In this document: piece after piece, positions 32,797-47,662 of the stretch
How positions within the stretch are numbered: the stretch's first letter is position 1
Layout: every line of letters starts with the position of its first letter
Assembly (NCBI GenBank): GCA_017959005.1
Contig: JAGDBO010000004.1
Location: forward strand, 1-64,000
Source of the DNA: Bacteroidales bacterium
GTDB taxonomy: Bacteria > Bacteroidota > Bacteroidia > Bacteroidales > UBA932
DNA length: 64,000 nt
Direction: 5' to 3'
The notes under the pieces: model-generated
What the model saw: only the letters and a program-made list of their open reading frames with translations
Told to the model about the DNA's origin: nothing
Databases searched by the model: none
Made by a program: the position numbers and the translations under genes

Positions 32797-32797
32797 C

Positions 32798-33016
32798 TCA
32801 CACATTTACACAAATAAGTGGTTCTCCAAGAGCAACAGAAAGCTCCGCGATAGATCTTAGCGTAAGATTTTTTGCCAACTCCCTTTGAGTTATATTCTTC
32901 TCCTTTAGGATAGAATCTATCTTAGCAATAATCTCAGCAGACAATTGCATCTCCATTTTTATTTCCGGAGAAACTTTCTTTAACTTTTCTTTAAACCATT
33001 TTTGTTTGTCTTTCAT
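32798..33016 (-). CDS. XRE-like regulator lacking its recognition helix
   Basis: Product of 72 residues clearly related to the XRE protein at 47663-47944: both share the pattern ...VSP-I...QLSA-IIA-ID..L..KN-TQRELA... and end ...LTL-SIAELS-A-GEPLI. In this copy 17 residues, corresponding to KMGRSEAVISRWTTGFP in the paralogue, are missing in frame, which removes the DNA-recognition helix of the helix-turn-helix. It probably cannot bind DNA in the normal way; it is either a decayed copy or a dimerisation-only variant. Divergent from the DUF2442-HTH gene. Confidence 0.7.
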   Translation of the reverse strand: MKDKQKWFKEKLKKVSPEIKMEMQLSAEIIAKIDSILKEKNITQRELAKNLTLRSIAELSVALGEPLICVNV

Positions 33017-33061
33017 ATTTCAAAAATTAGCTTATATGCTAAGTTGCCTAACGGAACAAAG

Positions 33062-33484
33062 ATGGAAAAGATTATTAAGGTTTGGTTCAGGAATGATAGG
33101 ATATTCATAAGAACCAATCAAAACAGCATTTACAGCCGCTCTTTAAAAGCGTTTCCATTGTTAATGGATGCAACTCCCAGTCAACGTTCTCGTTACGAGA
33201 TAGGACTTGAGGGAGATGATCTTTATTGGGAAGAAATAGATGAAGACATACACATAAGCAGCTTCTACGAAAAAGATGAACTGATTAGTGAAGAAGAGAA
33301 TGAAATAGCCAAAGTATTCAAACGCTTTCCCCAGTTGAACGTTTCTGAAGTTGCGAGATCAATGGGGATAAACAAAAGCCTGCTGGCCAGATATATCTAT
33401 GGTGTAAAGAGACCTTCTGAGAAAAGAAAAAAAGAAATCTTCAATGCCCTTCGCAAACTCGGCAAAGAGCTTGCAAAACTTTAA
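33062..33484 (+). CDS. DUF2442 plus helix-turn-helix protein
   Basis: The ATG at 33062 (MEKIIKVWFRNDRIF) is preferred over the upstream in-frame start at 33002, because the DUF2442 fold begins there. DUF2442 (about 1-75) is a small domain found in antitoxin-like proteins; the C-terminal half (about 85-140) carries an XRE-like helix-turn-helix, VSEVARSMGINKSLLARY. In Bacteroidales such genes often follow a DUF4160 toxin-like gene; none is seen here, so this may be an orphan antitoxin. An R2 repeat follows the stop by 18 bp. Confidence 0.75.
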   Translation: MEKIIKVWFRNDRIFIRTNQNSIYSRSLKAFPLLMDATPSQRSRYEIGLEGDDLYWEEIDEDIHISSFYEKDELISEEENEIAKVFKRFPQLNVSEVARSMGINKSLLARYIYGVKRPSEKRKKEIFNALRKLGKELAKL

Positions 33485-33502
33485 ACGGCCTTGCCGATCT
33501 CC

Positions 33503-33573
33503 TGCATTTGAGTAAATTTTTGGTACAATCTTACGATTATCCCAAAAAATTACGCTTTTGTAAGTCGCTTATC
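33503..33573 (+). repeat. R2 palindromic repeat, copy A
   Basis: Contains GAGTAAATTTTTGGTACAAT, then CTTACGATTATCCC and TTACGCTTTTGTAAG. It lies between the convergent DUF2442-HTH and HNH genes. Confidence 0.8.
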
Positions 33574-33580
33574 TTGACGT

Positions 33581-34603
33581 TCAACAATTATCATCAAATA
33601 CATCACCACCAGTCCATTCCCGGCCTAAGGATTTTGTAAAGTATTTCTGGGCTCCATCTTCTTCGAAGAATGTGCGAATGCTCTTGTGAACGAAAAATCC
33701 GTCTTGGAAGTAAACCTCTGAGAGAGCATATTTCTTAATACCCGAATTTTCAGAAACCACGGACAGATGGGAGCCGTTTTCAGACAATGCCGCATCGTAA
33801 ACTGGAGATTCTCCCCATTGGTTTCTCGTATAGATGGCTCCCTTTTGCAAATGAGTAAGATAATCCTGCAAAGGTGTTTCCGTGATCTTTTGAGGAGTTT
33901 GCGGAAACTCTGTAGGAGTCTTCCAGTCAAGTTGTTTGGCTCCTGGGGTCAGCGAGTCTTTTAGGGCGTGTTCTTCCTCCCAGATTCTACGTTTTTCTTC
34001 TTCTATCTCGGCATTTCGTTGTGCCCAAGATTTCTTATTGTCCGAAAACACCCAGTCCCCGAGACCTTTGCCCGTACCCTGAGGCATGTTGTCCCTCTTG
34101 GTCCATTCATCAAAGTGTTTCTTGCAAGCAGCAGCTTCTTCCTTTGTGACTGTCTTCATCCAACTGATATCCGGCGGTAGAGCTTTAGTTCGGAGGATGG
34201 CTGGATTTTCGATAAACGCTTCAATACTACCGCAGAGGTAGATGATTTTCTTTCGTGTAACATCATTATTTAGAGCATTTTCCAGTCTAGTGAACCAGCG
34301 TAGATTTTCCGGCCGGTTGTTGCAACGATTGGTGTCTATATGGTCAACAACCATATGTGGCTGAGGTTCCGGCCCATGAAAGGCCGTACACACAACCTGA
34401 TGGACTCGGATGTTGCCGGTGAAAATCATATAGCCATCTGGATTTTTTGTTCCGAAACCCCAGACATTGTCCCATTTACTCGGCCGACAACCCTTTTTGG
34501 AAATGCGGCATATGGCACCATTATCACGGACAAGGTATAGACGGTCCTTGTATCCACATTCGCGGACTTCTTTGTATTGGTTTATTATATCCTCTTTATC
34601 CAT
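33581..34603 (-). CDS. HNH endonuclease-domain protein
   Basis: Protein of 340 residues with an N-terminal HNH nuclease domain: His68 in VHQVVCTAFHG, then VVDHIDTNRCNNRPENLRW (about 85-103) with His88 and Asn96/97/100, the H-N-N arrangement of homing-endonuclease-like and phage HNH proteins. The region after residue 150 is helical and Glu/Lys-rich and then unclassified; the C-terminus (about 250-340) is not recognised and could be a target-recognition or effector domain. At about 340 residues it is longer than free-standing homing nucleases. It lies 73 bp downstream of the nuclease-DUF2075 gene on the same strand. Confidence 0.8.
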   Translation of the reverse strand: MDKEDIINQYKEVRECGYKDRLYLVRDNGAICRISKKGCRPSKWDNVWGFGTKNPDGYMIFTGNIRVHQVVCTAFHGPEPQPHMVVDHIDTNRCNNRPENLRWFTRLENALNNDVTRKKIIYLCGSIEAFIENPAILRTKALPPDISWMKTVTKEEAAACKKHFDEWTKRDNMPQGTGKGLGDWVFSDNKKSWAQRNAEIEEEKRRIWEEEHALKDSLTPGAKQLDWKTPTEFPQTPQKITETPLQDYLTHLQKGAIYTRNQWGESPVYDAALSENGSHLSVVSENSGIKKYALSEVYFQDGFFVHKSIRTFFEEDGAQKYFTKSLGREWTGGDVFDDNC

Positions 34604-34676
34604 CTGTCTTATTCAGGATATGTTTTTTGTATTTCGTTAAGTTCTCACGGCAAGGCGGCGGACTAAAGCGATGGTA

Positions 34677-36818
34677 TTACAATTCTGTAATGCCTAAAGA
34701 TCTCAAATACTCGTAGGTACTATCATAGAATTCAGGAAGTCTTGTTGCATCTTCTGGGAATCCTTCAGAATTAAATCTGTCATTTCCCTCTGGAACGCAG
34801 ATTACAAGACCTTGACGAGCACGTGTTAAGAGAACTCTATAAGCATTGAGCATATACTTTTGGCTTTCTTCATTCCTCTCTGGAATCCATTTGGTTTTTC
34901 CATTGAACTTATAATAACCCCACTTACCATTTTCATATCTCATGTCTGCATCCCAAAGAACACAAGCGTAATCAAGCTCCAATCCTTGAACTTGTATTTC
35001 TGTTGCGGCCTCCTCCAAATAATTAGAAGATCTTACATCATTTTTATCTTCCAAGAACCAATGAACAGCGTTTTCATCACCTTGCCCTAATACATTAACA
35101 GCTTGCGGTTTATAGCGCGCAGCAACTTTTGTAACAAGAATACCTGTTTGTTGAGAACCACGTGCTTTATTCCTTAACCACTTGCGAGCTTTATTAATAT
35201 CTCTAGTAAGAACTATTGGATAGCCCTTCTTTGAAATCTCTTCGTACAAGGAATATGTATTTGTGGAAAGACTTAGTAGAGAATGAACAAAACTTGAAAC
35301 TGTTTCCGCCCTGAAAGAACGGAGACTTACAGCAAGATGTAGTTCATCTGAATAAGTCACATTTTTGTTGTACTGTAAGAGTTCATTAACCCGTCCTTCC
35401 GCATACTCCGCATCTGTTAGCTTGTTGGAAATAAACACTTTCCAATGCGGATAACTATTATTTAAGGCGTCTATCCATTCTGCTATTCCGGCTTCTCCTG
35501 TATTGATTTCTTGCCCTCCACCAACAAGGCAAATGATTACTGCCCAATCTTTTCTTTGATCCAAAGACCAAATTAGAAATTCCGCCTCAGAAACAGGAAA
35601 GTTTGGCACCTTAAGTTTATTGCCATAAGTTCCGCCTCGCTTGAGGTAATTTGCTAAGCGTGAATGTGTCCACGTCCTCTGAGCTTCATCAAATATTGCC
35701 ACATGCTCAACCTCACCATAACCAGAATGTTCTTGTTCAACGGCTTTCGTTGGATCAATTTCAAGAACCCCATTTTCAACTGGATTCTTAATCTTAGCAA
35801 GCATATTGTCTCTGTAACGGTGAATGATTTGGATGAATTCACGAACCTCTCTTCTTGAGTCCGACATGTTTTTATGCTTGCCTGAAGCTCTGATTTTCTT
35901 GTAATTATCTATTGCTAATGCTTCTGTAAGAACAGCAACTAGAGGACCATTTCCAGAAAGATAGACGGCTCCGTTTTCTTTGTCGAGCTCTCCATCTTTG
36001 TATGTTTGCTTGATGGCTACATCAAGTCCAACCAATGTTTTACCAGCTCCAGGAACGCCAGTTACAAAGCATATACTCTTTTGTCCTTTCTCTTTGCTAT
36101 CTTGAATGATTTCAAGTAAGTGTCTAATGGTTGCATCTGTGGAGACTTTGTCAGCTTCATGCCTAGTAATTTCTTCAACAGAATGATTGGTATACAATGC
36201 ACGAGCTGCTTCAACAATTGTTGGTGTAGGAGAATATGGACTTATTACCCATTGTCCTCCCCAACTTTCTGAAGTATAAGGAGTTTTCTTCTGCTCAATA
36301 ATTTCAGATAATAGATATTCCAAATGCTTTTCTCCAGAAATCATCGGGTTTAGAACACCATCGTCATATACTGAATTCTGAACAGATTTCGTATAACGCC
36401 CATACTCCGTAGGTACAAGAACTGGAGCAATTGGCTTATCGGCACTGAACAAATGAAAGTTTTTAAGGTCAAGAGCGTAATCTAATACTTGCTCCAGATC
36501 ATCTTGTAGAGCATCCTTTTTTCCAACCTTGAACTCTAAGCAAAAGATTATTCCCTTGAGAAGCAAAATCACATCTACTCTCTTTCCAAGTCTAGGAATA
36601 GCGTATTCAAAGATGATGTAAGCATCTTCATCTTTCCATCTTTGCAGAATCTCATGCAGAATCCTTATCTCCCCTTCCCAGGCCTCATTTGTAGTTGTTT
36701 GATCAACCCCATGAAAAGCCCTGACCATTCTTCCCAATATTGAATCTTGGCTACTTTCAAGGAAATCCTTAAAAGTAGCCACATATAAACACCTATTAGA
36801 TTTCATACTATTGTTCAT
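34677..36818 (-). CDS. PD-(D/E)XK-like nuclease fused to DUF2075 ATPase
   Basis: Large protein (713 residues; an alternative ATG lies four codons in). The N-terminal part has a restriction-like nuclease signature: LGKRVDVILLL (Asp82) then FCLEFKVG (Glu95, Lys97). The C-terminal two thirds are a DUF2075 superfamily I-like ATPase/helicase, with Walker A GVPGAGKT (254-261) and Walker B IFDEAQR (about 375-380). Motifs near the end include EIQVQGLELDYACVLWD and YRVLLTRARQGLVI. Proteins of this build occur in phage-defence islands. An R2 repeat lies upstream; AT-rich codon use unlike the housekeeping genes. Confidence 0.85.
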   Translation of the reverse strand: MNNSMKSNRCLYVATFKDFLESSQDSILGRMVRAFHGVDQTTTNEAWEGEIRILHEILQRWKDEDAYIIFEYAIPRLGKRVDVILLLKGIIFCLEFKVGKKDALQDDLEQVLDYALDLKNFHLFSADKPIAPVLVPTEYGRYTKSVQNSVYDDGVLNPMISGEKHLEYLLSEIIEQKKTPYTSESWGGQWVISPYSPTPTIVEAARALYTNHSVEEITRHEADKVSTDATIRHLLEIIQDSKEKGQKSICFVTGVPGAGKTLVGLDVAIKQTYKDGELDKENGAVYLSGNGPLVAVLTEALAIDNYKKIRASGKHKNMSDSRREVREFIQIIHRYRDNMLAKIKNPVENGVLEIDPTKAVEQEHSGYGEVEHVAIFDEAQRTWTHSRLANYLKRGGTYGNKLKVPNFPVSEAEFLIWSLDQRKDWAVIICLVGGGQEINTGEAGIAEWIDALNNSYPHWKVFISNKLTDAEYAEGRVNELLQYNKNVTYSDELHLAVSLRSFRAETVSSFVHSLLSLSTNTYSLYEEISKKGYPIVLTRDINKARKWLRNKARGSQQTGILVTKVAARYKPQAVNVLGQGDENAVHWFLEDKNDVRSSNYLEEAATEIQVQGLELDYACVLWDADMRYENGKWGYYKFNGKTKWIPERNEESQKYMLNAYRVLLTRARQGLVICVPEGNDRFNSEGFPEDATRLPEFYDSTYEYLRSLGITEL

Positions 36819-36875
36819 CTTTACAAAGATATTGCTTCTGAACGAGATAACAAAAGGCTTAAAATGGTTAAACTT

Positions 36876-36963
36876 GGGATAATTCCAGAATTATCCCAAA
36901 AATTTACGTTTTTGCAAGATATGCAAATGAGTAAATTTTTGATACAATCTTACGACTATCCCT
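36876..36963 (+). repeat. R2 palindromic repeat, copy B (longest form)
   Basis: Begins with the palindrome GGGATAAT / ATTATCCC, then TTTACGTTTTTGCA and TGCAAATGAGTAAA as near-perfect arms around a 5-nt loop, then TTTTTGATACAATCTTACGA and CTATCCC. Confidence 0.82.
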
Positions 36964-37152
36964 CATTCTTAGGCTGTGAAGTTTCTTTTTTTCTTCCTGG
37001 ATATTTGTTTTTAATGTATTAGCTTTGTCTCCAGAAACAGTGCCCTGGGAAGTAGCTGTGTCATTTCCCTCGCCCGCAAGGGTTCCAACAGTGTCTGTCC
37101 TATTGTTGGAGGCACTGTTTTTTTCTGCAAAGGAACAGCAAAGACTTGACAA
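36904..37152 (-). pseudogene. Remnant resembling the tail of a phage barnase/EndoU-like (PBECR) nuclease
   Basis: The open frame contains NSASNNRTDTVGTLAGEG and NDTATSQGTVSGDK, which I recall as the low-complexity tail after the nuclease domain of phage-encoded PBECR proteins in Bacteroidales. No nuclease domain is left upstream; the frame opens at TTG and its end runs into R2 copy B. I take it as a degraded phage-derived piece, not a working gene. Confidence 0.4.
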
Positions 37153-37164
37153 GTTTTGTCAAGT
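37144..37164. repeat. Perfect inverted repeat ACTTGACA / TGTCAAGT
   Basis: 8-bp arms around a 5-base loop at the edge of the phage-like remnant. It could be an operator or a terminator stem; a GTTGTCAAAA direct motif near 43870 is similar. Confidence 0.5.
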
Positions 37165-37191
37165 GATAAAATAATGCTGGCAGAATTCAAC

Positions 37192-37260
37192 TTACAAAAG
37201 CGTAAATCATTACAGAATTATCCTGCATTTGAGTAAATTTTTGGTACAATCTTACAATTC
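37192..37260 (+). repeat. R2 palindromic repeat, copy C
   Basis: Starts with CTTACAAAAGCGTAAAT, the reverse complement of the tail of copy A, and continues with GCATTTGAGTAAATTTTTGG and TACAATCTTAC. Confidence 0.78.
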
Positions 37261-37367
37261 GCACAAAAATCTTCAAAAAAGGCTCAAAGATAATTCCGCA
37301 AAAAGAACTATAATACTTTCGCTTTTTAATGCAGCTCCTCAGTTAAAAATTGAATTACTTAGCAGAC

Positions 37368-37537
37368 ATGAAGAAGGCAAAAAGAAAATATGAATACATT
37401 TACATCCCGCCAGAGAATACGGGCTCAGAGTTGTATCATGGTATAAAGACTTTTTTGATGATCACAACCACCATCGTAGTCATCAAGGCATCAACCATAT
37501 GGTTCCCGATAAGATCTACCTGAAAGATGTCGCATAA
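37368..37537 (+). pseudogene. C-terminal fragment of an IS3-type transposase (frameshifted)
   Basis: Translation gives KRKYEYIYIPPENTGSELYH then, after a one-base shift in a T tract near 37451-37456, FFDDHNHHRSHQGINHMVP and DKIYLKDVA with a stop. The HHRSHQGIN segment is the end of the rve/DDE integrase core of IS3-family transposases. The rest of the element is gone. No function is expected. Confidence 0.75.
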
Positions 37538-37580
37538 TATTAACTAACAACAAACAGGTAGCTGTTAAAAGACGAGATTA

Positions 37581-39014
37581 TTATAAAAGCCCTAACTTCG
37601 AAAGTTGTTGAACTACGTCTTCCTTGTCAATTTTAAAAACAGACGCGATAACGTCACTTGAACACCCTCTTTCCTCATAAAGTGTTTTTAAGAGCTTATT
37701 GTCAGCCTCCGACCAAGAAATAAACTCTAATGAATTAAATACTGGTTTAAAATCCATTGTATCCTCAATAAGGTGTAGCTCGTCCGTTCCCTCTGTATAG
37801 TTATTTTCTACAGGGCTGGTCGTTATCTCTTTGCTAATAAGAACCTCATGAGGGGAATTCTTCTTATTTGATCCAATAAAATAATTTTCCCAAGGCCTAT
37901 TTTCATTAGGAAGTCCAAACTTCAAACAAGATCCCACATTATCTAGAATAATACACTTCGTTTTACCCTCTGTAGGCCTCAACCCACGCCCAACTTGTTG
38001 AAGATATTTTACTAAAGATCTGGTCGGTCTTGCCAGTTGAATAAACTCAATATCAGGACAATCAAAGCCTTCTGAAAAAATATCTACATTTACAATGATA
38101 TCAATGAGCCCGTTTTTAAAGCGTTTGACATATAATCTTCGAATATCCCTAGGCGTTGTTGCATCAATTGCTACAATGTTAACTCCGGCCTTTTTATATT
38201 CTTCGCATATATGTTCACTATGTTTTCTACTAATAGAATAAATTATTCCTTTTTTCCCCTTCGCCAATTTTTGATAACTATCAAGTAATCTTGCGCGAAT
38301 TTGTAAAGTGTCCATTTCCCTCTCAAGTGCTGAAATTTTGTAATCTCCTTCAATGTCATATTCTTTAATTGTTGAAATTCTTTGAACTTCTATACTTTCA
38401 TTCCTCACAGAATAGAAATTATACGGAGACAACCATCCTTCAGCTATAAAAACTTTTATGGGCTCAGAAGTGATTAATTTATCAAAAATAGTAAGAAAAC
38501 CCTCACCGTTCATTCTCCATGGTGTTGCAGTTACGCCTAATTTCTTTGCACCAGGAAACAATTGCCAAAGTTTCTTATAAGAACTTGCAATTGAATGGTG
38601 GGCTTCATCTATAATGATAAAACGAATATCAAGGTCTCTTATAACACTATTATTTGTATGATGAGCTATTGTCTGTATTGAGGCAACTTGCACATATTGT
38701 CGCAAATCTCTCTTTCGTCCGCCAGCAAATATTCCATGAGAAATACTATAGCGTTGTAGGTTCTCACTAATTTGATCTATTAATTCTATTCTGTGTGCAA
38801 CTATTAAGACGCGACAATTTATTGATCTTAAGGCACTCCAGGCCTTAATATCACTTATAATAGAGGAAAATAAACGAGTTTTCCCCGTGCCCGTTGGCAT
38901 CTGAAAAAGAACATTACTACATTCACTCCAAGCAGAAAAAATCTCCTTTTTTGCTTTTTGTTGATATGGCCGCAGGGTTCTATCTTCTCGGAAAATACTC
39001 TTAAAGTCGTACAT
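37581..39014 (-). CDS. SF2 DEAD/DEAH-box helicase of the defence module
   Basis: From ATG 39014 the 477-residue product has the helicase core: RPYQQKA (Q-motif-like), MPTGTGKT (39-46), DEAH (136-139), GVTATPWR, and the C-terminal motifs FSEGFDCPDIEF and QQVGRGLRP. It resembles RadD and the translocase part of type I/III restriction enzymes. A TTG start at 39047 would overlap the upstream gene by 17 bp. Last gene of a three-gene minus-strand operon with the nuclease-DGQHR gene and the adenine methylase, so a translocase role in restriction or defence is likely (inference). Confidence 0.85.
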   Translation of the reverse strand: MYDFKSIFREDRTLRPYQQKAKKEIFSAWSECSNVLFQMPTGTGKTRLFSSIISDIKAWSALRSINCRVLIVAHRIELIDQISENLQRYSISHGIFAGGRKRDLRQYVQVASIQTIAHHTNNSVIRDLDIRFIIIDEAHHSIASSYKKLWQLFPGAKKLGVTATPWRMNGEGFLTIFDKLITSEPIKVFIAEGWLSPYNFYSVRNESIEVQRISTIKEYDIEGDYKISALEREMDTLQIRARLLDSYQKLAKGKKGIIYSISRKHSEHICEEYKKAGVNIVAIDATTPRDIRRLYVKRFKNGLIDIIVNVDIFSEGFDCPDIEFIQLARPTRSLVKYLQQVGRGLRPTEGKTKCIILDNVGSCLKFGLPNENRPWENYFIGSNKKNSPHEVLISKEITTSPVENNYTEGTDELHLIEDTMDFKPVFNSLEFISWSEADNKLLKTLYEERGCSSDVIASVFKIDKEDVVQQLSKLGLL

Positions 39015-39030
39015 ATGGAAAATACAAAGA

Positions 39031-41334
39031 CTAATCCGTTGTAGCAAACTGAGCTAAATGATCACGAATGACCCATAATTTGTCTATGTCGGATTGTGTG
39101 AGAGCGTCTTGTTTTTTACCTTTTGGACTATCAGCAACCGTCATCCAACTAAGCTTTTCTTTCCTGGTTTTAAAGGTATCTCCAATAGACATTTGGATTG
39201 AGAATGCTTCAGAGAATTTAGGACTGCTGAAGTTTTTCTCAATAATGCTCTTATAATCTGATATATCAAGATAATCTTTCCAGTCATAATTATCCAACGA
39301 GTCCGCATCATTATCACCTATTTGTTTTATTATTCTCGCCTCACAATCATTTTTTATTTGTAAAATAGAATTTTCCCAACGCTCCCCGAGCACTTCTTCC
39401 AAACAACTAAAGACCACATTTCTTAGTAAATCCTTTATTTCCAATTTTAACTTTTGGCCGGATTTTTGAAGATCTTCATCCTGAGTTTCTCTCCACTGAA
39501 CAAGTTCTTCTGGGAGATAATTCTGGTATTTTTTTGAAACCAGGTCTTGAAACAAACGGAGCCAGTATGTATCTGCGCCTTGTCCAAGCCTTCCTTTTAA
39601 ACCTCCACTTTCCACATCAGACAATTCATTAAGAGCTTGCCCCAGAGCACTAAAATATGGAGAAATAGCTTTGATTCTTTCTTGAATTGATGATCTCTTG
39701 TTAATCACATCTGTTTTAATCAGATATCGATGAATAGAGCCAACTAGGGCGATAATAGCGAAAGTAGCTCTATTAGAGAACAAGTAATCCTTTTTTTTAT
39801 CATCCTCCAAAACCTCTTCTAAAATAGAATAGGCACCATTAACAAATTGTGCTATCTTTCTCCTAGCACATTTCATCTCCTCATCACTGTTCGTGTTATT
39901 TGTGTCATAAATACAGCAATCCGTGTCTCCAATATATTTTGTTGGCGTCGCAGAAGGAATCAGACCAGATTTTCCAAAGGCTGTATCGAACGGTTTGAAT
40001 GCCAAAGTAGCTCCATCCTCTCCCACTGAAATTTTGTTATAAAGAACATAATTAGAATTTGAAGCTAATTCTTTTATTATAGAAGAACGAAGCGCTTTCA
40101 TTCTGGAATCTATTCTTGAAGCGTTCCAGTAAAGGTCCTCTTCCAAGTCCAAGCGTAAGCTAGGACTCACAGCCTTCTGATTCTCATTAATATCCATAAA
40201 AAGTTTTAACTGATCCTCTGATGGCATTTTTTCAAAAGCAACAACAGGAATAGTACTCTTATCTTTGTAGTCAGAAGCTGCATATCCATAAAGTCGGTGT
40301 TGACCGTCTATTATGTATGCTATGCCGTAAGCATTAGGTATCTGTAACATACCCAATCGAGACTTCGAATCATAGGAACGGGTTGATGGTTCAAAAGAGG
40401 TTTCCAATTTTTTTGTAGCACCACTAAAATTTATAATAATGGAATTGGGGAAGTAGCCTCCTTCGTTAATGAATTTTGTTATTCCTTTTAAACGGCTAGG
40501 CACTAAAAGTCTCTGATATGTCGGAGCCATTGAATCGTTAACTCTAGTACGATGGAGAATAAAACCAATCTTGAGAAGAGTACTTGGTTCTATTGAAAAA
40601 AGATAATACTTCTGCCCCCCCATATTACCCTGTAGTGCCGGAATGGAAATCCTATCGTTATTTATCAACTCATCTTTAAACATAAGTCCGTAAAATTGAT
40701 AGATCACAGACTCTTTATAAGATTTTATCAAATTTGATATATAGTCATATGTATTATCATTCAAGTGGAAAATTTTATTATTTCTCATTCGCCCTTGGTC
40801 TTCGTCTCCGATTCTGTAATTGCGTGTTGCAAAAATAAATCTTACCTTTTTGGATGAACCATAAATTTGGCGAAGAGCTTTTATAACCCCGTCCTTGTAT
40901 CGACACATGACATCTATCTCATCTTTAAAATGCCCACTCCTTGGGTTTTTCGCAGCTTTGCATTCAACCACAAAAATAGCATCAACTCCAACGGCTAGAA
41001 CATCTATTTGATGATGATCAGAACTATCACTGCTCCAAGGTATAGACAATTTTTCATCGCTATTCAAGCAGCGAAAACCAAGCTTATAAAACATACACCA
41101 AATGTCATCCTCAAACAAATCGCCTGTTTCTTTTGGACGACTCATTCTTACTTTCTTTTTAAGTGTGTGTATGACTTCATATCCCCGCTCCTCAAAAGCC
41201 TCACGTTCATTGTGAGGCACACTAATATTGACATTTTTCGAATTTTTTGCCTTGAATTTTGCGGCAAGCATTTCAGGATTATCTGTCATGTGTTTTTTTA
41301 ATTCAGCTACTTGAATTTCATTGAGGAATGCCAT
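39031..41334 (-). CDS. PD-(D/E)XK nuclease + DGQHR (DndB-like) domain protein
   Basis: Protein of 767 residues. Residues about 70-180 carry a restriction-like nuclease signature: HHQIDVLAVG with Asp111, then FVVECKAAKN with Glu124 and Lys126. The middle holds the eponymous IDGQHRLYGY (DGQHR at 343-347) followed by FMDINENQKAVSPS, characteristic of DGQHR proteins including DndB, the regulator of DNA phosphorothioation. The long helical C-terminus (about 450-767) is not recognised. No dndACDE-like genes are present. Operon order: methylase, this gene, helicase. I infer the nuclease subunit of a modification-linked defence system. Confidence 0.82.
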   Translation of the reverse strand: MAFLNEIQVAELKKHMTDNPEMLAAKFKAKNSKNVNISVPHNEREAFEERGYEVIHTLKKKVRMSRPKETGDLFEDDIWCMFYKLGFRCLNSDEKLSIPWSSDSSDHHQIDVLAVGVDAIFVVECKAAKNPRSGHFKDEIDVMCRYKDGVIKALRQIYGSSKKVRFIFATRNYRIGDEDQGRMRNNKIFHLNDNTYDYISNLIKSYKESVIYQFYGLMFKDELINNDRISIPALQGNMGGQKYYLFSIEPSTLLKIGFILHRTRVNDSMAPTYQRLLVPSRLKGITKFINEGGYFPNSIIINFSGATKKLETSFEPSTRSYDSKSRLGMLQIPNAYGIAYIIDGQHRLYGYAASDYKDKSTIPVVAFEKMPSEDQLKLFMDINENQKAVSPSLRLDLEEDLYWNASRIDSRMKALRSSIIKELASNSNYVLYNKISVGEDGATLAFKPFDTAFGKSGLIPSATPTKYIGDTDCCIYDTNNTNSDEEMKCARRKIAQFVNGAYSILEEVLEDDKKKDYLFSNRATFAIIALVGSIHRYLIKTDVINKRSSIQERIKAISPYFSALGQALNELSDVESGGLKGRLGQGADTYWLRLFQDLVSKKYQNYLPEELVQWRETQDEDLQKSGQKLKLEIKDLLRNVVFSCLEEVLGERWENSILQIKNDCEARIIKQIGDNDADSLDNYDWKDYLDISDYKSIIEKNFSSPKFSEAFSIQMSIGDTFKTRKEKLSWMTVADSPKGKKQDALTQSDIDKLWVIRDHLAQFATTD

Positions 41335-41354
41335 AATATATCAATTTAAAGATA

Positions 41355-42251
41355 TTATTTATAATTACGTATAACTACTTCTGTGGTCTCTTTCCTGCGG
41401 TCACCATGCGCGTTAATAAATCTTTTCGCCTTTACTCTACAACAGTCATATCCTTTATATAACTGTTCAAAATATGAAGATCCGTCTTCATTCTTACAAT
41501 CAGAGTTGCTTAACATAAAATAGCCCCCCTTACGAGATATTGTATCACAAAACTCCTTTAAATGTTCTTGCTCTTCTTTTTCAAAGGGAGAATTCGAATA
41601 TTGGCTAAAATAGGAAGTTACACTGACTGGCAAATATGGAGGATCTAGGTATACGAAAGTTTTTTGGTAATTTCGGAGGTGCTTTGTAACAATTTGATAG
41701 GGGCCACATAGAATAGAAATATCCCTTGTGTTCAATATTTGATGGTCTGCAAGAATAAGATCTTTATTGAAAATATGATTTCCTGAATAACCATAAGGCA
41801 CATTAAAACCGGAATCGGAATTAACTCGATAAAGTCCATTAAAACAAGTATGATTTAAGAAAAAGAACAATGCCGCTTGTCGTAATATGGATTTATTATG
41901 CCGATTATATGATTGTCTTATGTAATAATAGTATTGTTTCTTTTCAGCATCCCCCAAAGACATGAATTTACGATCAATTCTCTCAAGAGATTTAATTAAC
42001 TTGTCTGGATCAGACTTTATCAAACGATAGCAAGCAATAAGATCTTCGTTGATATCATTAATAATAACGCGCTTAATATTTGGATAATGATTCAAAACAT
42101 AGAATAACAGGGCTCCACCACCTACAAATGGCTCCACGTAGGTAACATTCTCTTTGCTCAAAAAAGAATGAGGTAGAAGTTTGTCAATTTGACCAAGGAG
42201 GGCTCCTTTTCCTCCCGCCCATTTAACAAAAGGTTTTGACCGATATTCCAT
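41355..42251 (-). CDS. D12-class N6-adenine DNA methyltransferase (Dam/DpnM-like)
   Basis: Methylates adenine in a short DNA target using S-adenosylmethionine. The 298-residue protein has KWAGGK (10-15), the SAM motif EPFVGGGA (40-47), and the catalytic DPPY (203-206), the order of alpha-class MTases such as Dam and M.DpnII. NHTCFNGLYRVN lies in the target-recognition region as in Dam, so GATC is a plausible target. It is the first gene of the operon, 20 bp upstream of the nuclease-DGQHR gene, and probably provides self-protection. A clear promoter and tandem inverted repeats precede it. Confidence 0.93.
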   Translation of the reverse strand: MEYRSKPFVKWAGGKGALLGQIDKLLPHSFLSKENVTYVEPFVGGGALLFYVLNHYPNIKRVIINDINEDLIACYRLIKSDPDKLIKSLERIDRKFMSLGDAEKKQYYYYIRQSYNRHNKSILRQAALFFFLNHTCFNGLYRVNSDSGFNVPYGYSGNHIFNKDLILADHQILNTRDISILCGPYQIVTKHLRNYQKTFVYLDPPYLPVSVTSYFSQYSNSPFEKEEQEHLKEFCDTISRKGGYFMLSNSDCKNEDGSSYFEQLYKGYDCCRVKAKRFINAHGDRRKETTEVVIRNYK

Positions 42252-42289
42252 TTTCAGCCTCTCTGTTCTTTGTGTTGTAGCGTTTCCGA

Positions 42290-42337
42290 AAGTTATGCTT
42301 TTATTTATAACAAAGTTATGCTTTTATTTATAACAAA
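42290..42337. repeat. 23-bp tandem duplication with inverted repeats upstream of the methylase
   Basis: AGTTATGCTTTTATTTATAA occurs twice with a 23-bp period. Each copy holds the inverted pair GTTAT / ATAAC. The duplication contains the -7 box of the operon promoter, so it may be an operator. Confidence 0.8.
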
Positions 42338-42342
42338 ACAAA
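42311..42342 (-). promoter_or_regulatory. Promoter of the methylase-DGQHR-helicase operon
   Basis: Minus strand: TTTG (42339-42342), a 20-bp spacer and TAACTTTG (42311-42318) match the Bacteroidota -33/-7 consensus. The methylase ATG lies 60 bp downstream. The second duplicate carries TAACTTTC and should be weaker. Confidence 0.65.
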
Positions 42343-42448
42343 GATTTTAATCAAAAGATTGCTGCCTTTGAGAACATGCAGACCAAATCAAATTTACAAT
42401 TAGCATTCATATCTGATTCATTCATAAGCTTATATTGAACCCATGTAT

Positions 42449-42487
42449 GGAAAGACACTAGACTCTGTCATAAGAAAGCATTTATAA
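42449..42487 (+). pseudogene. 3'-end fragment of a GIY-YIG/DUF4357 gene
   Basis: Reads GKTLDSVIRKHL and a stop, nearly the same as the last residues (GNTLDSVIRKHLKI) of the intact gene ending at 43608. The similarity continues past the stop into R2 copy D, matching the sequence past 43608 into copy E. It is the right end of a lost upstream copy. Confidence 0.8.
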
Positions 42488-42512
42488 TCTAAAGTGATTT
42501 CATACATCCTAC

Positions 42513-42562
42513 GTACAATTCCAAAATCATCCCCAAAATTTACGCTTTTGTAGGATAATTCC
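42513..42562 (+). repeat. R2 palindromic repeat, copy D; part of a ~105-bp direct repeat
   Basis: GTACAATTCCAAAATCATCC then AAAATTTACGCTTTTGTAGG. Region 42447-42553 is a direct repeat of about 43562-43669 (copy E). The rest of the 42252-42765 gap is AT-rich with no gene seen. Confidence 0.8.
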
Positions 42563-42765
42563 GGAAGTTTGGGGATATTTCTATCATAATGATATAATTA
42601 TTATAGAATGGCGTAACATCTCATAATGTCTTTTAATAATCTTTGAGTATTGCTTAGACAGTCTTTATTGAAAAAACTATTCGAACCATAGAGGTATTTT
42701 ATTACAAAGGTTGAAGCAATTATTGTTTTTCTTATTTTTACGCAGTTATAATCATTCATTTTCTA

Positions 42766-43608
42766 ATGGGAAAGACTGTTACGACTTACTTGATAAATGG
42801 AGATCCTAAAGGGACCCGTTATGTTTTTATTGGTAGTGACATATTCAGAATGTATGTTATTCCCAGAACTAAACTGGAAATACTGAACGAGGAAAAATAT
42901 CTAAAATTTTCACGGCCTGCATTGTATATACTTTTAGGAGAAAATGAAGATACTAAACCCAAAGCTTATATAGGACAAACAGAAAACTTTCGGGAACGAG
43001 TCAAAACGCATGATAATAAAAAGGACTTCTGGAACAAAGTTTTGTTGTTCATTTCCACATCTGATGCCGCTTTAACTAGTAGCTCTATAAAATACCTGGA
43101 ATATTGTGCTATTAGAGATGCGAAGAAAACAGACAATTATGTTCTTAATGAGAATAAACAGGTTCCTAAAGAACCTATTTTACCAGAACACCAAAAGGCT
43201 CCAATAGATGATTTCTATCAGGATGTCAAGTTTTTAACATCTTTTTATGGTTGTACTATCTTTGATAATACCGGTTCTAGCAAAGTAAAGTTATTCTATA
43301 CTAAAGGAAGAGGATGCGATGCCAAAGGCATTTACAATGATGAAGGCTTTACCGTTCTAAAATCTAGTATTCTCGCAGAGACTACGGTTCCGTCATTTAA
43401 GTGGGCGTCAAAACGTGAAAAGCTCCTGTCAAACTTTGCGCAAAAACGGCCAGACGGAAAATATATTCTTTTGGCTGATAAGACCTTTTCTAGTCCAAGC
43501 ACTGCAGCTGATTTCTGTATAGGAAGCTGTAATAATGGATGGCTCCTTTGGAAAGATAAAGATGGAAACACTTTAGACTCTGTCATAAGAAAGCATCTTA
43601 AAATCTAA
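42766..43608 (+). CDS. GIY-YIG nuclease with C-terminal DUF4357
   Basis: Protein of 280 residues. The GIY-YIG nuclease motif appears as ALYILLG (LYI at 53-55) and AYIGQTENFRERVKTH (YIG at 68-70), with the conserved Arg of the catalytic helix at about 76. The C-terminus (about 220-275; STAADFCIGSCNNGWLLWKD) is DUF4357, a small domain commonly paired with GIY-YIG or methylase proteins in restriction-like loci. The gene stands alone between two direct repeats (42447-42553 and 43562-43669). Codon use is AT-rich like the rest of the island. Confidence 0.88.
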   Translation: MGKTVTTYLINGDPKGTRYVFIGSDIFRMYVIPRTKLEILNEEKYLKFSRPALYILLGENEDTKPKAYIGQTENFRERVKTHDNKKDFWNKVLLFISTSDAALTSSSIKYLEYCAIRDAKKTDNYVLNENKQVPKEPILPEHQKAPIDDFYQDVKFLTSFYGCTIFDNTGSSKVKLFYTKGRGCDAKGIYNDEGFTVLKSSILAETTVPSFKWASKREKLLSNFAQKRPDGKYILLADKTFSSPSTAADFCIGSCNNGWLLWKDKDGNTLDSVIRKHLKI

Positions 43609-43628
43609 TGTGATTTCATATTTCCTTT

Positions 43629-43671
43629 GTACAATTCCAGAATCGTCCCAAAAATTTACTCTTTTGCAAGA
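43629..43671 (+). repeat. R2 palindromic repeat, copy E
   Basis: GTACAATTCCAGAATCGTCC then AAAATTTACTCTTTTGCAAG, directly after the GIY-YIG gene. Confidence 0.78.
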
Positions 43672-43760
43672 CAGATTATTCAGTCGTCCTTATGAAAGCG
43701 TAGGATTATCTGCATAATTTTCTGTATTTCAAAAGACTATAAAAAGTTTGTCCGCCAAAA

Positions 43761-43842
43761 TTGTGAAATTATCACAAAAATATACGTTTTTGCAAGATTT
43801 GCAAAAGAGTAAATTTTCGGTACAATCGTAAGATTGTACAAA
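43761..43842 (+). repeat. R2 palindromic repeat, copy F
   Basis: Contains TATACGTTTTTGCAAGATTT and GCAAAAGAGTAAATTTTCGG, and a perfect 8-bp palindrome GTACAATC / GATTGTAC. It is preceded by GTTTGTCCGCC, as at the end of the gene finishing at 44384. The 43609-43934 gap holds only copies E, F and a promoter box. Confidence 0.8.
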
Positions 43843-43890
43843 AAAAGAGTATCTGGACACCGCTTGTCAAAAGTTGTCAAAACCGGCAAA

Positions 43891-43898
43891 TATCTTTG
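43891..43898 (+). promoter_or_regulatory. -7 promoter box (TATCTTTG)
   Basis: TAnnTTTG box 36 bp before the start of the gene at 43935, set within the inverted repeat CAAA / TTTG. Confidence 0.5.
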
Positions 43899-43934
43899 CG
43901 GTTGAATAAAAGTTAATGGACATTACAAAAGAGA

Positions 43935-44384
43935 ATGAATATGATGGAGATTTATTTATCGTCTGAGAATTACAAGGAGTTTCTGCCGGTAAAGGTTGTT
44001 GCATTCACCTATGCAGAGTTTGGGGCAATGGGAGATCCGGGGAGGGTGGAGTTGATTGATGTTCAAGGAAGAGTGTTCTTGTTTTATCTGCAGGAAGATA
44101 AACTGAAGATCTCAGAGGTGGAGGAGTTTTTCCCGGAGTTTAAATCGCTGCTTTATTTTCCTAAGAAGGCTTTCTTCTGCACCAGAAACGGGTACCTGGA
44201 ATCATTCTATGAAGGTTGGTCTGAATTTGATTTGGGAATGGGCAATCATTTAATCTTCAGCGGTGTTATCAAGAAGGAGCTGACAGAAAAACTATTGAAT
44301 CTGGAGAGTTACAATCGCTTCTGCATTGCAGAAAAGACAGTTCTTAAGGCAGTTGAGGGGATGTTTGTCCGCCCTAAATTGTAA
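43935..44384 (+). CDS. Uncharacterised cytosolic protein
   Basis: Family not recognised. Product of 149 residues, acidic, without signal peptide or membrane segment; the start could be any of three near ATG codons (43935, 43941, 43944). Short strands and aromatic clusters (GRVFLFYLQEDKLKI, FPEFKSLLYFPKKAFF) suggest a compact fold. Its stop codon is embedded in an R2 half-site. The base composition is less AT-rich than the GIY-YIG gene before it. It lies 62 bp before a lipoprotein gene on the same strand. Confidence 0.7.
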   Translation: MNMMEIYLSSENYKEFLPVKVVAFTYAEFGAMGDPGRVELIDVQGRVFLFYLQEDKLKISEVEEFFPEFKSLLYFPKKAFFCTRNGYLESFYEGWSEFDLGMGNHLIFSGVIKKELTEKLLNLESYNRFCIAEKTVLKAVEGMFVRPKL

Positions 44385-44398
44385 GATTGTACAAAGAG
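44380..44398 (+). repeat. R2 half-site, copy G
   Basis: TGTAAGATTGTACAAAGAG matches the right half of copy F; it overlaps the stop codon of the gene ending at 44384. Confidence 0.6.
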
Positions 44399-44406
44399 AA
44401 AAGTGC

Positions 44407-44414
44407 TACCTTTG
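44407..44414 (+). promoter_or_regulatory. -7 promoter box (TACCTTTG)
   Basis: TAnnTTTG match 32 bp before the lipoprotein ATG at 44447. Confidence 0.5.
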
Positions 44415-44446
44415 ATTTGGAAAAGTAACAGTTAAATCACACGGCT

Positions 44447-44974
44447 ATGAAAAAGATCAATATTCTGGTTGCGACAGGTCTCTGTGTTGCAGTAGTGCTG
44501 CCTTCTTGCAAAAACTCCGGAAAGGCTCCCTCAGAAGAAGAACCTCAGGCAGTAGAGGCAGTGCAGGAGGTCCAGGCAGAACCGGAGGCAAACGACTTGT
44601 CCAGGGTGCCTTCTCACGATAACTCTGCAGAAGATGACAAGGTTATAATGGAGTTTATAAAGGAGATGTTTGCGCAGTCTGTGTATACGGATGAGGAATT
44701 TCTGAAGAAGCATTGCACGGAGAATATGCTCGCTCAGTTGAGGGCAGATTATGACTATGAGGGTGAGGGGTATGCAAACTGGGATTTCCGCTCTGAGAGT
44801 AACGACGGATTTGGAGATAACCACATAATCTGTATTGAGAAAAAAGAGGGAAGGTATTATTATGAGGGGAATGACGGGGGCACAAAGTTCCGGAACATCA
44901 TCTCTGCTTTTGTAAAAGACGGGGTGGTTATGTTTGATGGCATAACCAGGGATAAGAGTTACCAGGGGGAGTAA
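44447..44974 (+). CDS. Lipoprotein, possibly DUF3828-like
   Basis: 175-residue product with a lipobox (VLPSC, Cys at about 21), then a Glu/Ala/Val-rich spacer (about 25-60) and a domain beginning DKVIMEFIKEMFAQ. The FLKKHCTENMLAQLRADYDYE segment recalls DUF3828 and other NTF2-like lipoproteins of Bacteroidales. Function unknown; probably anchored to the outer membrane. It is convergent with a decayed fimbrillin-like fragment. Confidence 0.7.
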   Translation: MKKINILVATGLCVAVVLPSCKNSGKAPSEEEPQAVEAVQEVQAEPEANDLSRVPSHDNSAEDDKVIMEFIKEMFAQSVYTDEEFLKKHCTENMLAQLRADYDYEGEGYANWDFRSESNDGFGDNHIICIEKKEGRYYYEGNDGGTKFRNIISAFVKDGVVMFDGITRDKSYQGE

Positions 44975-44983
44975 GGGTAGCGG

Positions 44984-45148
44984 TTACTCGTCACCTGTAG
45001 ATGGGGAAGGAGCGTACCAGTCCAAATCGTATACCTTGCCGGCCTCAAAGGTGACACTTGCCTTCCTGCGACCATGCTTATGATTAGCAGTGCTTTCGGC
45101 AACTACGTGGAAATTGGTGTAGGTACCCGGGGCTTTATAAAGTTCTCT
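44984..45148 (-). pseudogene. C-terminal fragment of a fimbrillin-like protein
   Basis: On the minus strand an open stretch reads RELYKAPGTYTNFHVV, then ASVTFEAGKVYDLDWYAP and ends PSPSTGDE with a stop. It has the flavour of the last strands of fimbrillin-type proteins (an FEAGKVY-like step before the end). It directly follows the stop of the 739-residue lipoprotein but in another frame and has no start. I treat it as the remnant of a neighbouring paralogue. Confidence 0.45.
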
Positions 45149-45153
45149 GTATT

Positions 45154-47373
45154 TTATTTCCTAACAGGGCGGGCCGGGAAGTAGAGAGCTACGTTATCTC
45201 CAGTAATAGCTCCATAATCCGGTATGCCTCTGTAATCATAATTACCGGCAGATCCGTTATAGAAAGTATAGAACGGATTTAAGGCCTCTTCCGGAGTTGG
45301 GAAATGGAGGGCAGAAGCCCAATTGAACTTCCAATGCCTGTCATCTGTTCCATCCGGGTCATGTTCGTGCATGTACATGGTTGGATAATAACCTTTTGCC
45401 CAATAGTTCCAGTTGCGATGGAATTGGAGAGAGGTTCCACCAATTCTTGCAAAGAAGAGAAAATCTGAACCTGGGAAAGGAAGGAAAATGAACTTACTGA
45501 TATCGCTTGCGTCTCCAAAAATAAATCCTTTCATGCCGCAAACATTAATATTTTGATGGATATAGCAAGCTTGCTCCCAGTTAAAAGGCTCAGGAAGTTC
45601 TGAATCATAATCAAATGTTGCCTTGCTCAAACTATACAAGCCGCGATCCTCATTCCATTGATTTTCAGTAGTCCATGTCAATTCAGTGGTGGTCCAAGGA
45701 TGCGGTTCTGCACTATGCCTGTCTGAAGCAAGATTTGTTGTCCACCAAGTTTTACCAGCCAAATTCTCTACAAAGTAACCTGGACCTACCTGAATCCAGT
45801 CCACTCCACCGGCAGCAGAAATATGAGCAGCTCCGTCTCCTAAAATTGTAAGACGTGAATCATCGTCGTCTAACAAATGGTAGTATTTATTTATATAAGA
45901 CTCTGTTCTGTGAAGAGCGTAATAATGTAGTGCTGAAGGAGTTGCAACGTGCTGAGCATAAGCATAACCATTCACTATATTAAGCCAATCACCGTCATTG
46001 CCAGAGACCTCGCTTATTGAACCATCTGCATTGACAGAAGCAAAACCTATAGGTTTCAAGTTGTTACAAGCAACTTTAACACTGTTGACAAATTCCGTTA
46101 CAACATCAAAACCTGTAACTGCCGGAGTTACAAGATTAATATTTGCATTGAGTTGGAGTCTCTCTACCAGAGGATCCCCTTCCTTGATAACAGAAACAGT
46201 ATAAGGCACTTGCACCGCTGATAAATATTCAACTCCACTAATCTGACCATCAAAAGCCCACTTACCGGCTGAGTATGACGGAGTTTCTGAAGTTCTACGT
46301 TTAATCCATACCGCTGTAAGAGTTCCGTTGGTTGCAACATCCTCAACTTTAGTAGAGTTCAAATCTACAAACGAACCGTAAAGCCAATCTCCGGCACTGA
46401 TGTGAGATACGTTCCAATAACCGGTAGTAACACCCTTGAAGAATACGAATACTTTTCCCTCCCCAGCCCAATCTGCAGAACCGTTTATGGTAAAGTTGAA
46501 GTTGTACCTCAGATTGCCAAAAGTTACAGAAGGATCTGACGCTGTCTGCGTCATCCTAGCATTAACCTCGTAATAATAACCATGGTTAAAAGTGGTTGTG
46601 GTGTTTTTATCGTACTTGTAGCAGAGCAGTTCACTACCCACATATGCCTTTAACCTGAAGTAATTAAAAGTAGTGTTATACAAACTCATAGCCACATAAA
46701 TCTCATTATGCGGAACTGTCTGATCTATATTAACTTCAAGAATTCCCCTGGTTCCGGATTCTGTGTAAATATATTTCTCCACATCATTGTAGGCATCAAG
46801 AGTAATCTTTGTAGGGTAAATAGGATTGTTGAACTCATCTACCAGAGTGAATTTAACTACCGTCTGGGAAGGTGTAAAAACAAGAGGTTGATCCAGTGTA
46901 ATATTGTTTTCTCCATCAATACTTTCTATGTAGGCATCTGCCTGGCAATAATCGTAAGAAGAAGATATTGTTTCCAAAGTACCATCCTGTCCGGTGTAAT
47001 CAACACCAGATGCTGCTCTTGGAAAAGTAAAAGTCAGGTGATCGTTAACAGCCAAAGGTCCTGAAATTGTGCCACCTAGAACAGCGGAATTACCCTCTGA
47101 CTGCGGAGTAAGAGTTCCTATTACGGGATCTATCCAACTTTTGCGAACATAAACGTGCTCAGTTGTACTCCAGCTAGATCTCAAATAGTTCTTCCCTGCA
47201 ACGTCCTCTATATGAAGAGCTTTAGAGGATACCGCCTTAGTATCCTTGCCCGCTTTTACATTCAACTTGTAAACATTTTTGTCTATAGGCTTTGAAGAAT
47301 CCTCTTTGGCGCAGCCAACTGCGAACCAAAGGACTGTAATTGCCAATATATTGAGTATCAGTGATTTTCTCAT
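45154..47373 (-). CDS. Fimbrillin-like surface lipoprotein
   Basis: 739-residue lipoprotein (lipobox AVGC, Cys21). Residues about 60-270 match the N-terminal domain of the lipoprotein at 48915: both have TT-(E/D)-x-(V/I)-YV, a LTPQSE/LRPQTE step, G-TI-G, and YTGQ-GT followed by YDY. This is the fimbrillin (FimA/Mfa-like) N-terminal fold. The central and C-terminal parts differ and contain many Trp and Asn; the C-terminus (about 560-739) looks like a sulfatase-modifying/FISUMP-type globular domain (WWTTNLASDR, FNWEQACYIHQ), but this is uncertain. It probably serves adhesion or as an accessory pilin; a 43-residue ORF precedes it by 26 bp. Confidence 0.75.
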   Translation of the reverse strand: MRKSLILNILAITVLWFAVGCAKEDSSKPIDKNVYKLNVKAGKDTKAVSSKALHIEDVAGKNYLRSSWSTTEHVYVRKSWIDPVIGTLTPQSEGNSAVLGGTISGPLAVNDHLTFTFPRAASGVDYTGQDGTLETISSSYDYCQADAYIESIDGENNITLDQPLVFTPSQTVVKFTLVDEFNNPIYPTKITLDAYNDVEKYIYTESGTRGILEVNIDQTVPHNEIYVAMSLYNTTFNYFRLKAYVGSELLCYKYDKNTTTTFNHGYYYEVNARMTQTASDPSVTFGNLRYNFNFTINGSADWAGEGKVFVFFKGVTTGYWNVSHISAGDWLYGSFVDLNSTKVEDVATNGTLTAVWIKRRTSETPSYSAGKWAFDGQISGVEYLSAVQVPYTVSVIKEGDPLVERLQLNANINLVTPAVTGFDVVTEFVNSVKVACNNLKPIGFASVNADGSISEVSGNDGDWLNIVNGYAYAQHVATPSALHYYALHRTESYINKYYHLLDDDDSRLTILGDGAAHISAAGGVDWIQVGPGYFVENLAGKTWWTTNLASDRHSAEPHPWTTTELTWTTENQWNEDRGLYSLSKATFDYDSELPEPFNWEQACYIHQNINVCGMKGFIFGDASDISKFIFLPFPGSDFLFFARIGGTSLQFHRNWNYWAKGYYPTMYMHEHDPDGTDDRHWKFNWASALHFPTPEEALNPFYTFYNGSAGNYDYRGIPDYGAITGDNVALYFPARPVRK

Positions 47374-47399
47374 AATTCAAAGATTTAATGGCTGAACTA

Positions 47400-47531: not shown

Positions 47532-47642
47532 ATAATATCAATCTCTATGGGGTGAACTACGATACAAATATAATAAGTTTTTAAAGATGATACCTGCTAC
47601 GGGCTACCGGGCCAGCGGAACTGTTAGGTGGGAGGGGTTGAT

Positions 47643-47660: not shown

Positions 47661-47662
47661 GT

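Follow-up and report, generated by a model that had tools for sequence, protein, structure and literature searches.

What kind of system is encoded by an operon that couples a DNA adenine methylase to a large protein with a DGQHR motif and to a helicase, and which of these genes belong together in evolution? The question is raised by a locus in a stretch of 64,000 nucleotides from a Bacteroidales bacterium of the UBA932 lineage (contig JAGDBO010000004.1, positions 1 to 64,000; hereinafter the window). The three genes sit where a preliminary description had placed them, all on the minus strand and behind one promoter, in the following order: a D12 (Dam/DpnM-like) N6-adenine DNA methylase (41355..42251; 298 residues), a composite protein of 767 residues with a predicted PD-(D/E)XK (NERD-like) domain, a DGQHR (ParB/Srx-like) domain and a helical C-terminus (39031..41334), and a superfamily 2 (SF2) helicase related to RadD/YejH (37581..39014; 477 residues from the ATG). 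That description presented the set as a modification-guided restriction system. Comparison with relatives shows that the conserved unit is the pair of methylase and composite protein, the helicase being an accessory gene of this lineage, and on balance we favor the view that the pair is a little-studied relative of restriction-modification (R-M), in which the methylase would mark self and the composite nuclease would restrict unmarked DNA.

The conserved unit is a methylase-DGQHR protein pair

Relatives of the composite protein were collected in a scan of 84,980 species genomes, in which 338 stretches were found to encode a relative of the query and the 80 best were retained, and in a scan of viral contigs (28 matches, nine of them long). 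The counts given below refer, unless stated otherwise, to 88 long DGQHR proteins. Frames that were shorter than 700 residues, cut off or broken (L060, L081, L084, L085, L087, and L095) were excluded, L019 and L020, which duplicate the records of L034 and L080, were dropped before counting, and the near-identical rows L037/L038, L110/L113 and L040/L044/L080 were retained.

A D12 methylase is encoded within 1 kb of 80 of the 88 proteins; among these 80 loci, the methylase gene is located upstream on the same strand in 75, and the gap is no longer than 100 bp in 65. The control loci of the same viral scan, which match the DGQHR part only, include no D12 methylase (0/19). The eight remaining loci consist of two at a contig edge (L070 and L088), one with a D12 methylase further off (L104), one with R.DpnII and an N6_N4 (DpnA-like) methylase (L086), and four without a methylase within the stretch examined (L015, L016, L062, and L112). 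Six further loci (five new ones and L173, on the contig of L081) all adjoin a D12-type methylase; the methylase of L171 is divergent, with a partial profile match, and lies on the opposite strand, and the DGQHR frame of L147 is interrupted. The helicase gene is present in only 22 of the 88 loci, all inside one clade of 23 members (L039 lacks it), a pattern that the tree accounts for with one gain and one loss. Because the helicase accompanies 22 of the 88 proteins while a D12 methylase adjoins 80, the conserved unit is the pair and not the triple. Co-occurrence, proposed for all three genes, thus holds for the methylase and the DGQHR protein and fails for the helicase in most relatives, so that a three-gene unit is ruled out.

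The operon is rare and patchy. Any match was found in 5 of 100 near-relative genomes, the own genome included (full length in three: own, G020 and G021), and in 10 of 395 genomes of a phylum sample (long in three: own, G309 and G360); two class samples yielded 3/385 and 4/369 and one order 6/396, with the centers included. Two matches of one class sample appear to repeat L059 and L092, and G1024 and G1343 are partial matches that are not among the six further loci examined. Judging by record titles, many of which denote metagenome-assembled genome bins, the pair is found in Bacteroidota, Proteobacteria and Firmicutes.

Two of the loci that lack a methylase are on plasmids, L015 (4200-14588) of Agrobacterium and L016 (7959-17275) of Novosphingobium. 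In both, the neighbors of the long DGQHR protein are a short DGQHR protein, an annotated radical SAM protein (below the Pfam cut-off), an ATP-binding protein (HATPase in L015) and PIN-like genes; these gene sets possibly represent another DNA-modification pathway. Saro_3948, the ParB-HEPN fusion protein discussed below, has a tag that points to the organism from which L016 was taken, and the two are possibly one protein.

Domain architecture of the composite protein

The DGQHR domain comprises residues about 229-437 (40024..40650, minus strand), with the DGQHR motif at residues 343-347 (40294-40308) as originally numbered, and the protein scores above the curated cut-offs of TIGR03187 (120.3 bits; cut-off 58.85) and PF14072 (61.9 bits; cut-off 29.1). 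The pentapeptide, R275, F379 and N383 are present in all 88 proteins and Q274 in 87; a QR pair and an FxxxN motif are given as features of the DGQHR domain (PMC4619093). The preliminary description had taken the motif for the signature of DndB. It is not confined to DndB, belonging to a ParB/Srx-type domain that is also found in DpdB and is related to a domain of GmrS. The window protein falls far short of the DndB equivalog level (TIGR03233, 33.4 against 328 bits) and accordingly is not filed as DndB; no further Dnd gene is present among the six window proteins scanned (three of the operon and three flanking), the rest of the genome not having been searched for dnd genes. A DndB-like protein has been reported to bind ATP and GTP (PMC12704722), which makes a nucleoside triphosphate (NTP) switch in the DGQHR domain a reasonable expectation. 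The family has no sequence match to any solved structure at an expectation value (E) of 1.

The N-terminal domain (residues about 60-195; 40750..41157, minus strand) contains Glu75, Asp111, and Glu124-Cys-Lys126, the latter two at the residue numbers first assigned to them. These residues are retained in most of the 88 proteins (Glu75 in 84, Asp111 in 87, Glu124 in 85, Lys126 in 82), which overturns a first impression of general degeneracy of the nuclease motif, gained from seven sequences. The NERD score of the window protein is 22.0, narrowly missing the cut-off of 22.1, and reaches 26.7 in the nearest relative, L019 (77% identical). An AlphaFold2 model of the composite protein was built on a 72-row alignment (mean predicted local distance difference test score, pLDDT, 90.0; predicted template modeling score, pTM, 0.77). 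In this model, the N-terminal part displays the alpha-beta-beta-beta-alpha-beta order expected for PD-(D/E)XK; Glu75 lies on the first helix, Asp111 on a strand and Glu124-Lys126 on the next strand. Foldseek comparison with the PDB placed entries of Cdn1, VC1899, EndoMS, AF1548 and Card1, all of them PD-(D/E)XK proteins, at ranks 1-7, followed by the ParB relative Noc (rank 8) and McrBC (rank 9). A nuclease fold of the PD-(D/E)XK superfamily is supported by the model for the N-terminal part, in agreement with the proposed nuclease signature, whereas the Foldseek scores are weak (see below).

The preliminary description overlooked the remaining part of the protein, an all-helical C-terminus (residues about 469-767; 39034..39930, minus strand). 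An RxxxxH motif, often RNLWAH, is found in 57 of the 88 proteins in the stretch that is aligned to window residues 728-762; the window protein has no RxxxxH in this aligned stretch. By sequence, the C-terminal region appears to be HEPN-like in the relatives, with the motif gone in the window member.

The methylase and DpnII-type systems

The identification of the first gene as a D12 adenine methylase is borne out by the presence of both the KWAGGK and the DPPY motif and by scores above the cut-offs for TIGR00571 dam (264.5 bits; cut-off 114.85) and PF02086 (199.6 bits; cut-off 22). Among solved structures, the methylase is closest to DpnM (2dpm, E 1.6e-44), and its predicted target is GATC. 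Of six DNA-contact positions of EcoDam, five look conserved in the methylase alignment and the Tyr138 position does not. The methylase also matches the PADLOC model PD-Lambda-5_B (66.6 bits).

The DpnM-like methylase recalls the DpnII-type R-M systems (DpnM, DpnA, R.DpnII), and so do some of the relatives. In L086 (5468-10406) and L099 (126-5079), an R.DpnII gene (PF04556, E at most 2e-91) lies directly upstream of the DGQHR gene and a DpnA-like methylase is encoded in the locus; a DpnII-type R-M system can have the DGQHR protein as its neighbor. DpnA-like methylases occur nearby in seven loci, five of them in the helicase clade (PF01555 in the two scanned, the rest assigned by BLAST clustering). 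The window system differs in that its presumed restriction factor is the composite protein plus the helicase. R.DpnII was not found beside the operon, that is, among the six window proteins scanned, and the system is therefore not filed as DpnII.

Loss of the RxxxxH motif and gain of the helicase

The third gene encodes an SF2 helicase, as proposed, with the usual motifs and a ResIII score of 100.9 bits (cut-off 22.5). Among the NCBIfam models, RadD fits best, with 149.6 bits against a cut-off of 720; since this cut-off is missed, the protein is not filed as RadD. The RxxxxH motif is found in none of the 22 helicase-bearing members and in 57 of the 66 members without a helicase (Fisher p 7e-14). 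The 22 helicase-bearing members, that of the window included, lack RxxxxH yet keep D111 and E124-K126. The order of events can be reconstructed by parsimony: the sister members of the helicase clade, L047 and L068, have neither the motif nor the helicase, so the loss of RxxxxH came before the gain of the helicase. A second loss of RxxxxH occurred in another clade, which is devoid of the helicase. RxxxxH is retained in all seven proteins whose nuclease motif is non-canonical, and no protein among the 88 is without both arms (Fisher p 0.049).

In 11 loci of the helicase clade, a small protein is encoded between the methylase and the DGQHR gene (e.g., L026 7550-7996); in the two that were scanned, it belongs to DUF7226. 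Neither a DUF7226-type small protein nor a DpnA-like methylase was seen in or beside the window operon.

Does the methylase protect against the nuclease?

If the methylase shields the host, loci without a methylase should tend to lose the nuclease. The test covered 92 loci, without L070 and L088, which lie at a contig edge, and with L086, L104 and L171 assigned to the methylase-bearing group. A non-canonical nuclease motif is found in three of the four methylase-less loci and in four of the 88 methylase-bearing ones (one-sided Fisher p 0.001). In the tree, two of the three independent methylase losses accompany a changed motif, and none goes the other way; the loss in L062 is not accompanied by such a change. 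Searches for additional methylase-less loci yielded none: two plasmid searches returned the same five records, one viral scan gave seven of the nine long loci again along with short ones and another gave nothing, and the six loci examined from the genome samples are all methylase-bearing. A whole methylase frame next to a broken DGQHR gene is seen in L060, L085, L087, and L095 (the inserts in L085 and L087 look transposon-like by eye). The direction of decay alone is not decisive because both broken DGQHR genes and broken methylases are observed.

Genomic setting

The operon lies within a variable island of about 19.3 kb (32797..52081). The distance between lplA (29099) and what is presumably an RND-type gene (53331) is 23 kb in the window and about 4 kb in the same-genus genomes G029 and G025, where the island is absent between the same flanks; homology to these genomes ends near 32796 and restarts near 52082. 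It is the much closer spacing of the shared flanks in G029 and G025 that places the operon in a variable stretch of roughly 19 kb. In genome G037, the shared outer sequence reaches further, to 33067 on one side and from 48581 on the other, and the contigs concerned end close to these points; G020 carries an operon with 77% identity among different neighbors. The island also holds an HNH gene and two PADLOC candidates, PDC-S41, a Schlafen group 3 helicase gene (34677-36818, minus strand; E 7e-241) with its own match to the promoter pattern (36824-36854), and PDC-S14 (GIY-YIG/DUF4357; E 6e-73). The right edge of the variable stretch is adjoined by the gene of a XerC-like tyrosine recombinase (52083-53042, minus strand; TIGR02224 268 bits, below the cut-off of 335), which may be resident rather than island-borne because G029 and G025 retain homologous DNA there.

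An intergenic repeat of 50-95 nt, with an inner palindrome in some copies, is scattered between the gene cassettes of the island (33500-33565, 36873-36967, 37221-37269, 42509-42555, 43625-43671, 43751-43845, and 48552-48634). A 33-nt pattern of its core (at most 3 mismatches) occurs three times in the 1.8 Mb assembly, always within the island (reversed control, 0), and a BLAST search with one copy gave 15 matches (self included, E up to 1), 11 of them in the contig of the window. The repeat may be a recombination site, a terminator or a regulatory element. In three other loci, direct repeats of about 65-100 bp bracket the methylase-DGQHR pair (L071, about 6559-6638 and 10460-10546; L066, 6985-7066 and 10966-11047; L079, about 6954-7018 and 11732-11795), and the upstream copy in L071 resembles, by eye, a tRNA 3' end, which would fit movement of the pair as a cassette. 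Integron attC-type flanks were considered and rejected: among five repeats tested for two core-site patterns, that of L079 has one and none has both.

The Bacteroidota promoter consensus is TTTG-N19-21-TAnnTTTG. A promoter-like site of this form, TTTG-N20-TAACTTTG, is located ahead of the operon (42311..42342, minus strand), in accord with the single promoter originally proposed, whose end coordinate it shares, and overlaps an exact 23-bp tandem repeat (42289-42334). The pattern has seven matches in the window against 0.96 expected, a number that is reached in none of 100 shuffles. The helicase frame extends over 37581-39047 (488 residues) if started at TTG 39047; the start is more likely ATG 39014 (477 residues, MYDFKSIFRED...), which aligns with the starts of relatives.

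Relationship to known systems

The pair of methylase and composite protein was not found described in the open-access literature searched, and no PADLOC model fits it. The claim that the gene set cannot be matched to a named system thus stands with respect to PADLOC and has to be qualified with respect to the ParB-HEPN fusion, which a 2013 survey of HEPN domains already lists in a table: Saro_3948 is entered there as a ParB fusion with a HEPN of the Swt1-like kind, mostly active (PMC3710099), an architecture comparable to the DGQHR/HEPN-like one of the relatives. The same survey places the HEPN family of MAE_28990 in operons with genes for a ParB nuclease and a DNA methylase, so that ParB, HEPN and methylase come together there as well, the difference being that the HEPN protein is a separate gene (PMC3710099). 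The passages of that survey on these fusions mention neither the PD-(D/E)XK domain nor the pairing with D12 methylases nor the helicase lineage.

With DndB, DpdB and other DGQHR proteins, the composite protein shares the invariant or nearly invariant DGQHR motif, QR pair and FxxxN motif. The models of DndB and DpdB are, however, about 350 residues long and these proteins serve phosphorothioate and deazaguanine pathways, whereas the DGQHR domain of the window protein is flanked by a predicted nuclease and a C-terminal region that is HEPN-like in relatives, next to a base methylase. The type IV enzymes GmrSD likewise join a nuclease to a ParB/Srx-fold domain, in which the motif reads DGQ(Q/H)R; in contrast to the present system, the nuclease is HNH rather than PD-(D/E)XK, and GmrSD is a type IV system with no partner methylase. 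The resemblance to PD-lambda-5 consists in the match of the methylase to the B component and in the RM+Abi (restriction-modification plus abortive infection) character proposed by the authors of PD-lambda-5, who regard it as an RM+Abi system in a compacted prophage form. The composite protein and the helicase have no match to its partner among the families listed, the library's holding of a partner model not having been checked.

Candidate functions of the pair

We consider an R-M-like defense function somewhat more probable than not. The Dam/DpnM-like methylase would mark host DNA, probably at GATC; the DGQHR domain, with its predicted ParB/Srx fold, would bind NTP, contact DNA and, as a switch, control the N-terminal PD-(D/E)XK nuclease, by which DNA without the methyl mark would be attacked. 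In most lineages, the HEPN-like RxxxxH domain could provide a second, RNA-cleaving arm should restriction of DNA fail. The window belongs to a lineage that first lost RxxxxH and later acquired a RadD-like SF2 helicase, whose presumed role is to unwind DNA or translocate along it for the nuclease. The modification-guided restriction function advanced in the preliminary description survives in the form of a patchy module of methylase and nuclease-DGQHR protein with R-M logic, without the three-gene unit and the DndB-only signature.

Several observations weigh against this interpretation. The test on methylase-less loci involves four loci and three events, too few pairs for significance to be attainable (sign test p 0.5), and a Lys-to-Arg replacement, which was counted as non-canonical, may be tolerated. 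The nuclease motif of L062 is intact in the absence of a methylase, and L045, L092, L106 and L033 combine a short or split methylase frame with a whole DGQHR frame. Pairwise identities of the methylases and the DGQHR proteins are only modestly correlated (Pearson 0.45, 74 loci). Foldseek gave no hit at E 0.001 for either model and the TM-scores are low: the best match, Cdn1, has E 0.006 and a TM-score of 0.25 to the target, the tightest early match is AF1548 (117 columns, 3.0 A, TM 0.46), and the matches are listed without indication of which part of the model they cover. For the C-terminal region, 66 members under 80% identity were scanned one by one against Pfam, giving, at E 0.01, seven matches to HEPN_Swt1, five to HEPN_Apea, three to Abi_2 and one to RiboL-PSP HEPN, with a best E of 2.7e-6; HEPN_Swt1 scores of 25.8, 25.4 and 15.7 are under the cut-off of 27.5, and five C-termini also match the unrelated TetR-C family. 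The C-terminal model of L061 is all-helical (pLDDT 94.6), and Foldseek revealed no convincing HEPN match to it (Csm6 at rank 5, probability 0.07), so that the HEPN fold was not confirmed by this route. Finally, the association of the helicase with the lack of RxxxxH is not replicated, because the helicase was gained once.

The distribution of the RxxxxH motif also bears on a different possibility, that the pair is a guard or abortive-infection module resembling PrrC/PrrI, in which methylation would silence the composite protein, and lost methylation or failure of a resident R-M system would unleash cleavage of RNA and DNA and thereby arrest or kill the cell. Such logic was proposed for R-M-tied HEPN proteins in the 2013 survey (PMC3710099), and is in keeping with the retention of RxxxxH in 57 of the 88 proteins, with the two loci where the composite protein adjoins R.DpnII, and with the RM+Abi-derived character attributed by its authors to PD-lambda-5, whose predicted methylase matches that of the window. 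We nevertheless regard this function as unlikely, given that the 22 helicase-bearing members have dispensed with RxxxxH while maintaining the nuclease residues and that R.DpnII is present in only two loci, other restriction enzymes not having been searched for systematically. A modification-dependent, type IV-like system, where the DGQHR domain and the nuclease would recognize phage-modified DNA and the methylase would be regulatory or a decoy, is quite improbable: GmrSD is reported to act on glucosylated hydroxymethylcytosine DNA and its DUF262 domain to be similar to the DGQHR domain, but the near-constant pairing with a methylase is unexpected for type IV, and the nuclease motif tends to change where the methylase is missing. 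It is very improbable that the locus has no part in defense and encodes a DndB-like repressor of the methylase together with a RadD-like repair helicase. RadD is indeed the best NCBIfam match of the helicase; the cut-offs for RadD and DndB are both far from reached, however, the nuclease residues are conserved, and the operon is rare, patchy and located on a variable island.

It is possible, although doubtful, that the family consists of immune proteins guarded by methylation, that a single ParB-like NTP switch presides in them over two interchangeable killing arms, one a DNase and the other an RNase, which are never both lost, that a translocating helicase replaced the decayed RNase arm in gut Bacteroidales, and that the DGQHR domain loads on DNA according to methylation marks, as ParB does at parS.

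DGQHR proteins are annotated in many records and are hardly treated in print; the word appears in six papers of the open-access literature searched. With its two genes, the methylase-DGQHR pair is a simple system in which to study what is sensed by DGQHR domains and whether immune responses by DNA cleavage and by RNA cleavage can be combined in a single protein.

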